Origin: Singulisphaera sp. GP187
GTDB taxonomy: Bacteria; Planctomycetota; Phycisphaerae; Phycisphaerales; SM1A02
NCBI GenBank assembly: GCA_945869475.1
Contig: CAMBOV010000001.1
Location: 62,001-126,000 of the forward strand
Length of the DNA: 64,000 bases
Direction: 5' to 3'
Below the pieces are notes generated by a model, which saw only the letters and a list, made by a program, of their open reading frames with translations, had not been told where the DNA came from and did no database searches. A program made the position numbers and the translations under genes. Positions 57,017-62,274 of this stretch are shown here, one piece after another; within the stretch, counting starts at the first letter, position 1; every line of letters starts with the position of its first letter.

Positions 57017-57711
57017 TTGACATATCTCTTTTTGGTCGACTTTGCGACTCCTCTAATCGCGTCCGCCCAAACCTACCGAGCCATCGTCCTTGATGTGCTG
57101 TTACCGCCAACCCAGCAGGATTCCACATTGGCCATCCATTGGGAACCGTCACCGTTCTTCGAGACGGCATTGCAAGGAACGTCGCCGTTTGCTGGGTTCG
57201 AACCGGCAGCAGCTGGAATCAACGTGAGTTGCTTCTCGCTGGTTCGGCCGTCGGTTCGATTGCCACGGATGCCAATTCGAATGGGGAGATTGTTGGCGCA
57301 ATGCTCCTCCCAACCCCTGACGGGCAGGCACAATGCAGTGCCGCTCTCTGGGATGGGGAACTCGCTGTGGACCCCAGTACAACGACGCCACAACTAATAT
57401 TTTGTCCCAGTGGCTGGTTTTGCTCGGATGGATTTCACAGTTCCATAGCCAGCGCAATCGGTCAGCCTGCGTCCATCACAGGAGCAACCGACGTCGCGCT
57501 TGAGTTTTACCACACGGTCGTCGTCGCCGATGCCGTCTGCGCAGCGGAGCTCAACGGTGGCCGTGTTGTTGACGGACTCGACCTCATCGCGGTGCTCGTT
57601 GTGTGGGGAACAACCGGCGATGGATTGCCGGCAGATTTCAATCGCAGTGGCATCGTCGATGGAGGAGACCTTTCCTTCGTCACAAGCGGATGGGGCGCGT
57701 GCGCGGATTGA
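57017..57711 (+). pseudogene. Degraded secreted protein gene with dockerin-like end
   Basis: No single frame covers this region. A frame from about 57017 begins with a signal-like LFLVDFATPLIASAQTYRAI, but continuity with the downstream protein requires a shift near 57100 into the frame that reads ANPAGFHIGHPLGTVTVLRD, then GSIATDANSNGEIVGA and finally ELNGGRVVDGLDLIAVLVVW and DFNRSGIVDGGDLSFVTSGW, a dockerin-like pair. The DNA is lower in GC than its neighbours. The first EF-hand loop has lost most acidic positions. Reading: a secreted family member that has been truncated and frameshifted; sequencing error is the alternative. The 170 bases before it, after mutL, hold nothing recognisable. 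Confidence 0.55.
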
Positions 57712-57779: not shown

Positions 57780-58577
57780 TCACCGTGGGTCGTACGCCCG
57801 ATCGTCGTTGGTGAGAAAGCCGTTGTCAGGCCAGCCCATCGGTGAGGTGAGCAGTGCATCGCTGGCGTGAACTCCCTTGCACTGTGTGCAGACTCCGCGC
57901 ACATGTCCATCGAGCCACGCGACGTTCGTGCACCCCTGATGGCGGTACGCCTGCGCGCCACCGTAGACAATTCCAAGGTTCATTTCGACGGTTGCACTCG
58001 GCGCACGCATGAATTTGTTCGCGCCGCTTTGCCATCCACCATCTCCAAAGAGCGCGGTCTCGCTCGGACGACGCTGCTGATTCATCGAGAGTCCCTTGCG
58101 CGCGCTCTCCCATCCACTGCGAACGCGTCCATCGGGATCGGTAATCGGCCACGACCCTTCGGCGCCGATGAAAGTCGTGTTGTAGTTAAATCCAGTCACT
58201 GGATCGCCGCCGAATGTGCTCGCACCAAGAAACGATGGACACTGTTGCACGTCGTATGGATGGTCGGTGAATGACCAGAGTGGTCCGGGCTCGATCTCTC
58301 CCGCGGCGCCTTGCACGAAATCCCACGCGACTGTTCGCACGCCGCCCGAGCGAAGCTCAAAGAGAATCGCTGCAGGAAAAACCTCGCGAGACGCCGTCGC
58401 GTACGACTGCGCCGCAACCGCAAGTTGTCGAAGCCGTCCCGCGCATTCACCACTGCGACTTCCTTCGCGCACCGCAGTGACTCCAGGCAGCATCAGCGAC
58501 GTGAGAAGTGCGATGATTCCAACCACAACCAGAATCTCAACGAGTGTGAGCGCGCGACGTGTGCGAGGCATGGTCAT
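57780..58577 (-). CDS. Prepilin-type N-terminal methylation protein with H-x9-DG tail
   Basis: 265 residues. RRALTLVEILVVVGIIALL is a type IV prepilin/pseudopilin leader (cleavage usually follows a Gly; here Ala precedes TLVE). The C-terminal YRHQGCTNVAWLDGHVRG is the H-x9-DG motif found with such leaders in planctomycetes and verrucomicrobia (DUF1559-like). It is expected in the inner membrane as a pseudopilin-like subunit; function unknown. The ATG at 58577 overlaps the stop of the upstream secreted protein gene in ATGA, so it lies under the same cobalamin riboswitch. Confidence 0.85.
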   Translation of the reverse strand: MTMPRTRRALTLVEILVVVGIIALLTSLMLPGVTAVREGSRSGECAGRLRQLAVAAQSYATASREVFPAAILFELRSGGVRTVAWDFVQGAAGEIEPGPLWSFTDHPYDVQQCPSFLGASTFGGDPVTGFNYNTTFIGAEGSWPITDPDGRVRSGWESARKGLSMNQQRRPSETALFGDGGWQSGANKFMRAPSATVEMNLGIVYGGAQAYRHQGCTNVAWLDGHVRGVCTQCKGVHASDALLTSPMGWPDNGFLTNDDRAYDPR

Positions 58578-59494
58578 CCGCTCCATCCAGCAAGAATGGC
58601 TGCGAGGTCAGGTCCATCGACAACACCGTTTCCATTGATGTCCGCAGTGGCGTCGGCACTGCCGAATGCCGAGAGGACAGCGGCGAGATCGATGCCGTCG
58701 ACCGATCCATTGCCATCAAGATCTGCGGGATGCGTCGCGGCACGCACGCGCGCGATCGCGTCGATCTCGACGTTTGGGTTGAATCCAGCTGCCACTGAAA
58801 TTCGAACGGCGATCGCACTGCTCAATCCCACGCGCGCGAGATCAACTCCGCTTCCACCTGCAGAGCCGCCGTAGAGCGTGACAAGCTCTGCGTACGACAC
58901 TCCCCACACGTCGCTCACTGTCAGCGCTGGATTCACGGGCAGTCGCGGGTCGGTCGCAATCGTTCCCGCCACGAGGCTGTACGGTTGCGCGTCGATCCAT
59001 CCCATCGTTGGAAAGAGACCGTCAGCGAGTGTCGAAGGAATCGTGAACCAGTGTGTTCCATCGGCGGTGACTTCGATCGCGCCTCCGTCGGCAGCGAGTG
59101 CGCTGGCCGATCCATTGGGATACGCGCCGTCGGTAAAGAAAGAATTTCCAAAGACGATGAAGTCGATGCCAAAGGGATTTCCTGGATGGTCAAGGAGCGG
59201 GGGATTGAATGCGAGGGTGAGTGATCCGCCGCTGCCGATCGAGACAATCTCACTGTTGAGAAAGCAGGGTTGAAATGGAGTGACCGCGCCCGGATCGATT
59301 CCTTCGCCCGTGAATCGCTCGGGCGGACCGAGGGCGACCAGCGGATTCGTGTAACCGTTCGCCGCGTTCGACCCAGCGACGTACGAGAGCACCGAAGTCG
59401 CGAAGTCGCTCGCCGATGCCGGCGCACTCGCCGCGAGCACGAGCGTCAACGAAAGCAATGGAAATGCGCAGTGCGTGCTGTTCAAGTTGTTCAT
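58574..59494 (-). CDS. Secreted dockerin-like module protein under cobalamin riboswitch control
   Basis: 306 residues, family not recognised. Signal peptide CAFPLLSLTLVLAASAPASA; then a beta-rich domain (about 30-235: GGSLTLAFNPPLLDHPGNPF, DFIVFGNSFFTDGAYPNG, VTADGTHWFTIPSTLADGLF) suggestive of a carbohydrate- or ligand-binding sandwich; the end has two EF-hand-like loops, DLDGNGSVDGIDLAAVLSAF and DINGNGVVDGPDLAAILAGW. Regulation by a cobalamin riboswitch suggests a role in corrinoid capture or in a process that replaces a B12-dependent one; this is inference. ATG 59494 follows directly on the U-tract of the riboswitch terminator and lacks a Shine-Dalgarno. Coupled to the pseudopilin gene. 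Confidence 0.82.
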   Translation of the reverse strand: MNNLNSTHCAFPLLSLTLVLAASAPASASDFATSVLSYVAGSNAANGYTNPLVALGPPERFTGEGIDPGAVTPFQPCFLNSEIVSIGSGGSLTLAFNPPLLDHPGNPFGIDFIVFGNSFFTDGAYPNGSASALAADGGAIEVTADGTHWFTIPSTLADGLFPTMGWIDAQPYSLVAGTIATDPRLPVNPALTVSDVWGVSYAELVTLYGGSAGGSGVDLARVGLSSAIAVRISVAAGFNPNVEIDAIARVRAATHPADLDGNGSVDGIDLAAVLSAFGSADATADINGNGVVDGPDLAAILAGWSG

Positions 59495-59539
59495 AAAAAA
59501 AGATTGGACCGGTGGCGTCTCGCTCCGGGAGCCCCAATC
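59495..59539 (-). terminator. Riboswitch expression platform: intrinsic terminator abutting the ATG
   Basis: On the minus strand GATTGG (59539-59534) pairs with CCAATC (59507-59502), with inner GGC/GCC pairing, followed by seven T (59501-59495) and then the ATG at 59494. It would stop transcription when formed. Confidence 0.65.
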
Positions 59540-59549
59540 GCAAGGGCGC

Positions 59550-59733
59550 GGCGCATGGTGAAAGCAGGTCTTCCGGCTTCGGGCACCCCAGCCTGCCTTC
59601 CCAGATGTGCGCGAGCAACATCCAGTGGCGTCGTGGCTGAGGCATGGAGGCATGCAAGCATGCACTTCCACCCGTTACGGCAGTGCGTCTACGGCGGATT
59701 TTCACCGCCTTCCCTCGCACAAATCATGGCGCC
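59550..59733 (-). promoter_or_regulatory. Cobalamin riboswitch
   Basis: The aptamer reads on the minus strand. Conserved parts in order: P1 strand GGCGCCATG (59733-59725), GAGGGAA with GGCGGTGAAAATCCGCC (59709-59693), GCACTGCCGTAACGG, GCCACTGG, GGGAAGGCAGGC, the B12 box AAGCCGGAAGACCTGC (59579-59564), and the closing P1 strand CATGCGCC (59557-59550). The order and spacing match class I cobalamin riboswitches. It should reduce expression of the two downstream genes when adenosylcobalamin is available. Confidence 0.93.
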
Positions 59734-59749
59734 AGCCACAATTTCTGCG

Positions 59750-59771
59750 CTTGGGAGCACGAACTCCCAAG
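59750..59771. other. Perfect 8-base-pair hairpin upstream of the riboswitch
   Basis: CTTGGGAG, loop CACGAA, CTCCCAAG. It lies in the divergent gap between the riboswitch and the plus-strand gene at 59911, without a T-run on either side. It could be an upstream leader hairpin or a regulator site. Confidence 0.4.
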
Positions 59772-59910: not shown

Positions 59911-62274
59911 GTGTTCGACCATTTTCTTCGTCCCTCCGCGGTCTTCGCCGCAACGGTCCTGATCTCATGCATTGGATCGCCATCCGCCCTCGCCGCGATG
60001 GCGAGATTTGACGATCCAACCGATCCGCCAGCCCAACCAACGGACGAGCCAACCGCAGAGCCGCAGGCCGACGATGCCGCACCCGCCGACGGCGAAGCGA
60101 CGAGCGAGGGTGATGCCGCGACTCCAGCAGCCGAATCTGCCGCACCCGTTGCACCATCGGATGGCGCCACCGCGCAACAGTCCCGCGACTTGGACATGGT
60201 GTTGCACTACATCCTCATTGGAAAGCCTGAGATGGTGAAGAGCTCGCTCGAGACACTCTTTGATTCTGGGATCACCGATGAACAGCTCGCACAACTTGTC
60301 GACCAACGTGGACTGCGCGAGAAGATCGAACGAGCCGTCTCGCGAGGACGCGGCATGGACGGCGTCGGTGTGCTCGTCGTCGATTTCGAAACCCGATTTC
60401 TTGCGGGCACGCGTGCGAGCAGTCGCAACGCGCTTCGCATCGAAGAGGCGGTTGCAGATCTTGGCGGCACGATGCGTCAACAGATGATCGCGCGCGGACG
60501 ATTGTTGACCGCTGGCGAATACGCCGTACCCGCCTTGCTCAAGACGCTCAGCGACGGGTCGAATCCAAAGCTTGCGGCCGCCGCACGCGCCGCGCTCGTC
60601 GACATCAAGCGACTCAGCGTTGCACCACTCTGTGCAGCGCTGCCACATCTTGAGGCCGATACTCAGCGAAAAGTCTGCGAAATTCTTGGCGAGATTGGAT
60701 ATCCCAGCGCGCAGCCCTATCTCTTGCATCTCGCGACAAGCGCTTCGACTGCGGCCGATGTGCGCAGTGCAGCCTCGCGTGGCTACGACCGACTCGGAGG
60801 CACCTCACAGAGCGCGTCAAGTCAATTCACCGCACTCGCGCGGCGCTATTTCGATCAGACTCCTGCGCTGATTCCCTACGCTAGCGACGCAAACAATGCC
60901 GTCTGGCAGTATGACTCGAGCAGTGGACTCATCGGCATCGAGATTCCCACGCCGATCTACTGCGAGACAATGGCAATTCAGAGTGCCACAACGGCGCTGA
61001 CCATTGATGCATCTTCCGACCTTGCGCTGGCACTGTACGTCGCCGCCGATCTTCGTCGATCAGTGCTCATGAAGTTGCTCAAGGTTGATGCTGCCGCGAC
61101 CCCCGAAACCGCCGCACTCCTCACGAGCCGCTACAGCGCTGAGTTCTTCGCGACGGCAAGTGGAGCGCAGATCGCCCAGCTCGCACTTGGATTCGCAATC
61201 GATGCGAGCGATGTGCTTCTCGCGCGCGCTTGCATCGCAGTGCTCGCCACCAATGGAGGAGCGTCGACGCTTGTGACGCCATCCAATGGACGCTCGCCGA
61301 TCATCGAGTGTCTGCTCTTTGCCGATCGCCGAGTGCGATTTGATGCGGCGCTTGTGCTCGCACGAGCTCTCCCACAAGCGAGTTTCTCGCAAGACTCGTT
61401 GGTGGTTCCGATCTTGGGATCGATGGTGCAGTCGGGTGGAACGATGGGCGCCGTGATCGCATCGACCGAAGAAGATCGTCAGGCGATCGCCTCGCGAGTC
61501 AACGCGCTTGGTGTCAGCGCAGTCACCACAGGTGGATCACTCAGCGAAGTCGAGGGCAAGCTTGCCAATGGGCAAACGCTCGATCTGGTCGTGATCCAAG
61601 GTGCGCGTGCGAATGTGAATGACACGATTCGATCGGTTCGCGTCTCGCGCGCTGGCGCAACGGCGCCGGTGGTGGTGATCGCTCCAAGCACCGACGCGGG
61701 AACGTTGGCGATCGACTTCGAAAACGACGCGCGGGTCTCGGTCTTTCTTGCGAGTGCCACCGACCAACAGTTCGCCGCGGCGATTGAAGCGGCCGTGGGT
61801 GCTGCGGGGGGCATCGCCATCACCGAAGAGGATGGTGCTCTGTACGCGAGGTCATCCCTCGCCGCACTTCAATTGATCGCAGAATCTGCAAGCCCTGTCT
61901 TTGACATTCGCGACTGTGAGTCGGGACTGATCGCTGCCCTGAGCGCCTCCGCTGAGCCGACTGCATCGACTGGATCGACCCACAGCGCGGTTGCCGGCGT
62001 GCTCGCACTGATGCCCAGCGACAAGTCGCAGCGTGCGCTGATGGATGCCGCGCTCGCTGCAGGTCCAGAGACCCAAGAGATGCTGCTTGCACAGGTCGCC
62101 ACGAGTGCGCGAAAGTTTGGAAACCTCTTGCAGCCGCGACAACTCGACGCTCTCCGCTCGCTCATTGCGTCGAGCGAAGGATCAGTCGCCGATGCCGCGG
62201 GACAAGCGTTCGGTGCACTTGGACTCCCAAGCGCAGAGGTCGTGAAACTCATCGTTCTGCCAGCGGCGAAGTGA
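59911..62274 (+). CDS. Exported repeat protein with degenerate receiver-like domain
   Basis: 787 residues from a GTG with AGGAG ten bases upstream. Signal peptide VFAATVLISCIGSPSALA; an acidic/Pro/Ala low-complexity linker (35-90); helical HEAT-like repeats (about 195-300, e.g. YAVPALLKTLSDGSNPKLAA and GEIGYPSAQPYLLHLAT) and further helices to 500; residues about 512-632 look like a CheY-type receiver (AVIASTEEDRQAIASRVNAL, DLVVIQ, APVVVIAPSTD) but the phosphorylatable Asp is absent; then a helical end. Function unknown. Probably periplasmic. tRNA-Thr starts 8 bases after the stop. The 240 bases before it contain the riboswitch and hairpin. Confidence 0.75.
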   Translation: MFDHFLRPSAVFAATVLISCIGSPSALAAMARFDDPTDPPAQPTDEPTAEPQADDAAPADGEATSEGDAATPAAESAAPVAPSDGATAQQSRDLDMVLHYILIGKPEMVKSSLETLFDSGITDEQLAQLVDQRGLREKIERAVSRGRGMDGVGVLVVDFETRFLAGTRASSRNALRIEEAVADLGGTMRQQMIARGRLLTAGEYAVPALLKTLSDGSNPKLAAAARAALVDIKRLSVAPLCAALPHLEADTQRKVCEILGEIGYPSAQPYLLHLATSASTAADVRSAASRGYDRLGGTSQSASSQFTALARRYFDQTPALIPYASDANNAVWQYDSSSGLIGIEIPTPIYCETMAIQSATTALTIDASSDLALALYVAADLRRSVLMKLLKVDAAATPETAALLTSRYSAEFFATASGAQIAQLALGFAIDASDVLLARACIAVLATNGGASTLVTPSNGRSPIIECLLFADRRVRFDAALVLARALPQASFSQDSLVVPILGSMVQSGGTMGAVIASTEEDRQAIASRVNALGVSAVTTGGSLSEVEGKLANGQTLDLVVIQGARANVNDTIRSVRVSRAGATAPVVVIAPSTDAGTLAIDFENDARVSVFLASATDQQFAAAIEAAVGAAGGIAITEEDGALYARSSLAALQLIAESASPVFDIRDCESGLIAALSASAEPTASTGSTHSAVAGVLALMPSDKSQRALMDAALAAGPETQEMLLAQVATSARKFGNLLQPRQLDALRSLIASSEGSVADAAGQAFGALGLPSAEVVKLIVLPAAK

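Follow-up and report, generated by a model that had tools for sequence, protein, structure and literature searches.

In the stretch of Singulisphaera sp. GP187 DNA analysed here (64,000 nucleotides, hereafter the window; source genome of 2.55 Mb in 32 contigs, 96.7% complete), a cobalamin riboswitch precedes two overlapping open reading frames (ORFs), which encode a secreted protein (ORF1) and a DUF1559-like pseudopilin (ORF2) (Table 1). We consider it likely that this locus is a B12-repressed corrinoid-acquisition cassette of a planctomycete which uses B12 and in which no marker of corrin-ring synthesis was found. The new element is the link of DUF1559-like pseudopilins to the B12 regulon; the parts are known, and their combination is new within the open-access literature searched, where titles and the first parts of abstracts held no description of a cobalamin riboswitch or of B12 linked to DUF1559 pseudopilins. 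In the excerpts available, DUF1559 is the largest paralogue group of Planctopirus limnophila (68 copies, two of them essential, no known function; PMC10632474), 74 DUF1559 genes are given for Rhodopirellula baltica, where the family is cited as solute-binding (PMC2754498), and pili-like fibres binding dextran are described in planctomycetes (PMC5394234). That one DUF1559-like subfamily can be assigned to the cobalamin regulon, backed by clear controls, suggests a direct and testable function for it.

A total of 101 genomes of the order (Phycisphaerales) were searched for ORF1 and for the riboswitch model RF00174. The count of ORF1 homologues was based on the 69 listed matches covering the N-terminal domain (67 genomes; matches to the dockerin part alone were excluded). 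The original prediction had made its reading depend on a link between ORF1 homologues and B12 elements, and such a link was found: 60 of the 69 directly follow a cobalamin riboswitch (at a median of 156 bp and at most 943 bp), or 62 of 71 when two partial matches of the related F16 type, described below, are added (G062 and G097, 1344 and 1357 bp behind the riboswitch).

The pseudopilin shows the same association. Among the 111 RF00174 matches, 100 loci from 89 genomes were read (excluded were ten below-cut-off matches and a single above-cut-off one, G004:C34, at the edge of its contig; the below-cut-off match G044:C27 was included). A pseudopilin was found within 4.5 kb downstream on the same strand for 85 of the 100 riboswitches and in 82 of the 89 genomes, and in 83 of the 92 loci that offer 2.8 kb of room or more; the count was 85 at E 1e-20, 85 at 1e-30 and 83 at 1e-40. 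In the same 100 loci, a BtuH-like domain was present in 77, both BtuH-like domain and pseudopilin in 73, and at least one secreted protein in 90. Because the pilin model was built from the same loci, its count shows one recurring family, and direction serves as the control. Among the 72 loci with 4.5 kb on each side, a pilin was located downstream on the same strand in 67, upstream on the same strand in one, and on the opposite strand in none, either downstream or upstream; the corresponding numbers for the ORF1 domain were 56, three, zero and zero. A chance neighbourhood of riboswitch and pilin was rejected by these direction controls. Of the nine pilin-less loci with room, six contain only a protein of the secreted family f22 and three a TonB receptor.

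The original prediction of a prepilin-type protein with an H-X9-DG motif, coupled to ORF1 through an ATGA overlap, agrees with what was found. The N-terminus of ORF2 approaches the N_methyl model (19.6 versus a cut-off of 21.2 bits) and the exact motif is present, with the model pre_pil_HX9DG likewise below cut-off at 14.3 versus 19 bits. ORF2 resembles the DUF1559 (PF07596) pseudopilins in its putative prepilin-type N-terminus, its motif and a partial PF07596 match, whereas its subfamily differs from DUF1559 at large in being bound to the cobalamin regulon and in having one top-scoring member per genome. ORF2 was absent from the matches listed in a whole-genome PF07596 search. A profile of 13 riboswitch-linked pilins including ORF2 (A6) was run on the 101 genomes, and ORF2, itself one of the 13 profile rows, was the top match in its genome (326.8 bits). 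Among the 95 genomes whose best pilin was within the matches listed, the best-scoring pilin lies behind a riboswitch in 82 and adjoins an ORF1-type protein in nine more, with neither in G084, G069, G088 and G072; the profile itself was built from 13 of the 95, which match by construction, and six genomes fell below the matches listed. Since the best pilin of a genome mostly lies behind the riboswitch, the linked pilins look like a distinct subfamily, mostly with one strong copy per genome.

The N-terminus of ORF1 is hydrophobic, and the C-terminal tail scores slightly below the curated cut-offs (Dockerin_1, 22.5 versus 22.9 bits; NF041540, 27.9 versus 29 bits), in agreement with the signal peptide and dockerin-like loops of the original prediction; NF041540 matches 25 of 30 ORF1-family members at E <= 0.1. 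The protein had been called unrecognised. On profile comparison, its domain is distantly related to BtuH, a link reached in two steps through F16, a second version of the ORF1 domain which occurs behind riboswitches in other families of the order, often after a propeller protein. The ORF1-family profile (A4) and the F16 profile (A5) were aligned by hhalign with a probability of 99.6 and E 1.6e-24. The F16 member of locus L106 matched the PDB chains 8blw_B (E 1.4e-23) and 7biz_A (E 4.7e-20), and its tail matched dockerin and calmodulin chains; for a four-sequence F16 profile with most of the tail removed, 8blw_B (3.1e-28) and 7biz_A (2.7e-20) were the only matches up to E 1. Additionally, a mixed profile (A1) matched 8blw_B at 4e-7. 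In the portions of the papers available, 8blw_B is the BtuG1 H-domain in the BtuB1G1 complex (PMC10404256) and 7biz_A is BtuH2 with B12 (PMC8941943).

These Bacteroides thetaiotaomicron proteins (8BLW, 7BIZ) are, like ORF1, secreted domains of B12-capture type in cobalamin-riboswitch loci, related to ORF1 via F16 and with the phosphate-contact Asn kept. The Bacteroides BtuH forms carry PKD, propeller or no extra domains and share their loci with BtuB, whereas ORF1 has a dockerin-like tail, a pseudopilin partner, a cassette with no TonB receptor, and most of the contacts absent. BtuJ/DUF4465 proteins are likewise secreted B12 binders in riboswitch loci, and eight tested ones bind B12, according to the accessible parts of two papers (PMC12751083, PMC13398666). 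They form a family separate from ORF1, in which no DUF4465 match was found; a DUF4465 gene is present within the same cassette in L227, L228 and L261. The LIC_13355 family lipoprotein model (NF033170) matches 15 of 30 aligned ORF1-family members at E <= 0.1 (best 5e-6), with ORF1 itself at 14.7 bits versus a cut-off of 120. A predicted structure of ORF1 (A2, comprising the window, L033 and L034) had a predicted local distance difference test score of 30.9 and was not used. Scans for ORF1-type loci gave three in genome contigs and none in viral contigs, insufficient for a deeper alignment.

Beyond the order, RF00174 was present in 337 of 392 sampled genomes of the phylum. Sixty loci were picked by hand for family spread and room, and as they came from the listed best-scoring matches, this sample leans to strong riboswitches. 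In L228, the riboswitch is followed by a DUF4465 gene (PF14717, 2.3e-56), a BtuH-like gene (1.8e-9), a pilin and a periplasmic binding protein that scores best, though below cut-off, with the IsdE and BtuF models, while in L261 the order is DUF1559 (PF07596, 4.9e-54), BtuH-like and DUF4465. In L247, the pilin is preceded by genes resembling BtuF, BtuC and BtuD, none of which reaches its equivalog cut-off, and in L215 the pilin is followed by a small gene, BluB (247.6 versus 150 bits) and CobQ (614 versus 273 bits). L134 and L135 show a pilin, a second riboswitch, a BtuB-type receptor and, by inspection, ExbB-, ExbD- and TonB-like genes; the best family for the L134 receptor is the TonB-dependent B12 receptor, below cut-off. 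A BtuB-type receptor lies behind 7 of 40 riboswitches in the larger phylum set. The BtuB-ExbBD-TonB/BtuFCD uptake system belongs to the same regulon and adjoins the pilin in some planctomycetes, whereas the ORF1-ORF2 cassette has no TonB receptor. In L216, L218, L221 and L260 the pilin is the only one of these families seen behind the riboswitch (L218 ends soon after), which speaks for a B12-related function of the pilin itself.

B12-binding domains were found in all 101 genomes of the order, with three in the window genome, one of them in a frame of 1242 aa, a size that fits MetH. CbiC, an enzyme of the corrin ring, was found in none of the 101, while seven of 14 controls were positive, and a pure B12-synthesis role in the order is thus unlikely. 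FecCD permeases were found in 96 of the 101 genomes. One in the window genome lies within a BtuFCD-like operon (L236), for which B12 specificity is not claimed, the permease fitting the F420-0, hydroxamate and BtuC models alike, below all cut-offs. Four strong, full-length T2SSE-type ATPases of the type II secretion system (T2SS) or type IV pilus (T4P) were detected in the window genome. The original prediction had proposed a surface apparatus for corrinoid capture assembled by type II-like machinery. The capture part appears well supported by comparison, given the 60 riboswitch-linked homologues and the pilins beside BtuB-type receptor, BtuFCD-like and BluB-CobQ genes; type II-like assembly is presumed, the four ATPases being all that was found for it. 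In this way, capture of BtuH/BtuJ type is suggested to extend to a B12-using order in which CbiC was not found and a TonB receptor often was not, and the question is raised how B12, a molecule of 1.3 kDa, crosses the outer membrane in these bacteria.

In the mechanism we propose, low intracellular cobalamin would leave the riboswitch open and ORF1 and ORF2 would be expressed, the direction and mode of control being presumed. ORF1 would be exported and held at the cell surface through its dockerin-like tail, where its BtuH-related domain may bind cobamides, as homology and linkage suggest. As a dedicated prepilin-type partner, ORF2 would probably be built into a short fibre of T2SS/T4P type, which may display or move the capture protein or form part of the binding surface. 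Corrinoids would thereby reach the periplasm, and a BtuFCD-like ATP-binding cassette importer would complete uptake. For the pseudopilin we infer the whole physical role, including its assembly and any contact with B12. A stronger form, in which a riboswitch-controlled DUF1559-like fibre with BtuH-, BtuJ- or propeller-type proteins replaces the TonB receptor BtuB and brings corrinoids to the periplasm, is tentative and on balance rather unlikely; if true, this pilus-based device would be the first vitamin uptake system on a pilus and the first function of a DUF1559 subfamily.

Several findings weigh against a corrinoid-acquisition cassette or narrow it. Nine of the 69 listed ORF1 homologues have no listed riboswitch, contig-edge cases among them, and a rescan of three unlinked loci (L030, L173 and L087) gave no cobalamin riboswitch at E 0.5, so that some homologues are not riboswitch-linked. 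In the phylum sample the pilin lies behind only 11 of the 60 riboswitches (6 of 20 and 5 of 40). CbiC is a single marker and does not stand for the whole corrin pathway, and the PF07596 match of ORF2 (25.6 versus 23.3 bits) is limited to 42 residues (aa 38-79). A TonB plug, and with it a possible B12 receptor, is present in 44 of the 101 genomes, including the window genome, and in 23 of the 61 in its family. The PDB search with A4 alone returned no BtuH up to E 10; since A4 aligns with F16 and F16 with BtuH, but A4 alone misses BtuH, the homology is a two-step one. The BtuH2 contact residues were placed by hand (chain index + 100 puts six residues named in the paper on the right letters), and among those compared (Gln333, Asn399, Tyr510, Trp511 and Trp577; His476 was unplaced) only Asn399 is kept throughout, Gln333 and Tyr510 being kept in F16 and lost in the ORF1 family, and Trp511 and Trp577 kept in neither. 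Asn399, a phosphate contact, corresponds to the Asn of a VFGN motif (N117 in ORF1) and shows no variation across the 30 aligned rows. As the homology runs in two steps and most contact residues are lost, B12 or other cobamide binding by the ORF1 domain is something we infer, from homology and linkage.

The alternative which survives best, at somewhat under an even chance, is that the capture protein acts alone: ORF1 would bind surface corrinoids in the manner of BtuH or BtuJ, these would cross the outer membrane by way of a receptor or porin that has gone unrecognised, and the role of the pseudopilin would be limited to exporting or anchoring ORF1. In Bacteroides, BtuH2 binds in this way at the surface, in the company of TonB-dependent BtuB-BtuG transporters, according to the available parts of the sources (PMC8941943, PMC10404256). 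A single Plug protein (about 1024 aa) is encoded in the window genome, on a different contig from the riboswitch, and in genomes G085 and G094 the pilin adjoins a BtuB-type receptor with ExbB-, ExbD- and TonB-like genes. However, 57 of the 101 genomes gave no Plug match at E 0.001, a threshold which divergent receptors could escape, and no recognised capture protein was seen between riboswitch and pilin in L119, L134, L135, L216, L218, L221 and L260. These seven loci argue that the pilin is more than an exporter of ORF1.

Under the preferred reading, a corrinoid-acquisition cassette, the ligand of ORF1 is a cobamide. The loss of most BtuH2 contact residues would also fit another ligand, such as cobalt, a cobinamide-like precursor or a carrier; we regard this as improbable in view of the invariant phosphate-contact Asn and of the neighbours elsewhere, which are transport genes of corrinoid type. 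Less probable still is that the surface proteins and the pilus are adhesins by which a cell low in B12 sticks to B12-producing algae or particles, for although prepilins and tails of dockerin or PEP-CTERM type are surface features of a general kind, this explanation leaves aside the two-step homology of ORF1 to a B12-binding domain and the repeated company of DUF4465, BtuFCD-like, BtuB-type and BluB-CobQ genes.

Table 1. Features of the riboswitch locus, in window coordinates
Feature	Position	Strand	Details
Cobalamin riboswitch aptamer (RF00174)	59546..59758	-	cmscan 54.3 bits versus gathering 31.5; model 1-189, full length
Leader, aptamer to ORF1 start codon	59495..59545	-	51 nt; contains a hairpin, then U7
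ORF1, secreted protein	58574..59494	-	306 aa; ATG 59494, TGA 58576-58574; homologues behind cobalamin riboswitches
BtuH-like domain of ORF1, aa 28-256	58727..59413	-	hhalign to F16 family
GC-type dockerin-like tail of ORF1, aa 256-305	58580..58729	-	NF041540 E 2.3e-6, 27.9 bits
ATGA overlap	58574..58577	-	ORF1 stop and possible ORF2 start (M4)
ORF2, DUF1559-like pseudopilin	57780..58586	-	268 aa from upstream start 58586; alternative start 58577
Prepilin N-terminal segment of ORF2, aa 8-35	58482..58565	-	N_methyl aa 8-32; top hydrophobic 17-aa window aa 12-28
H-X9-DG motif of ORF2, aa 216-227	57906..57941	-	exact motif

The covariance-model search bore out the cobalamin aptamer predicted before ORF1 and placed its end differently, the prediction having ended at 59733 and the RF00174 match running to 59758. 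This match is the only one above gathering in the whole genome. The hairpin and U7 of the leader were not reported by a terminator scan, and the 100 nt after the aptamer contain T-runs of at most five in 17 of 17 genus relatives; a terminator as expression platform was set aside, the hairpin and U7 of the window not being common to these relatives. Upstream of the riboswitch, a divergent gene at 59911-62274 (+) encodes a HEAT-repeat protein, which is also the upstream neighbour in most riboswitch loci read from the family of the window genome, and the intergenic region common to the riboswitch and this gene may be conserved. On the other side, a frame at 57139-57711 (+) is convergent with ORF2 and has a weak dockerin-like repeat at its end (E 0.16).

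Additional secreted and small proteins were observed in the 100 riboswitch loci of the order. Outside the family of the window genome, 18 loci include a propeller-type secreted protein next to either the BtuH-like gene or the pilin (for example L106:7141-8349, L111:6354-7781 and L107:6386-7417). These propeller proteins are reminiscent of BtuG; homology to BtuG is not claimed, because the propeller profile, like that of f22, has no significant solved relative. A small Cys-rich BFD-like [2Fe-2S] protein is present in 29 loci (L111:5175-5486 and others); the single member scanned matches PF04324 at E 0.0018, short of the cut-off. The f22 family lies behind 15 of the 100 riboswitches, at times alone (L094:8256-9026, L113:7426-8124 and L099:10422-11009, for example), and its tails are by eye mostly PEP-CTERM-like. 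No PDB match was found for f22, and no significant Pfam match in the members scanned; it is a candidate new family of corrinoid-binding proteins. In the window genome itself, a second, small riboswitch of adenosylcobalamin type (RF01482, at 41.6 bits short of its gathering score of 50; L002:1512-1619 in G000:C21) precedes a 205-aa frame at 1632-2249, which is f22-like by eye.

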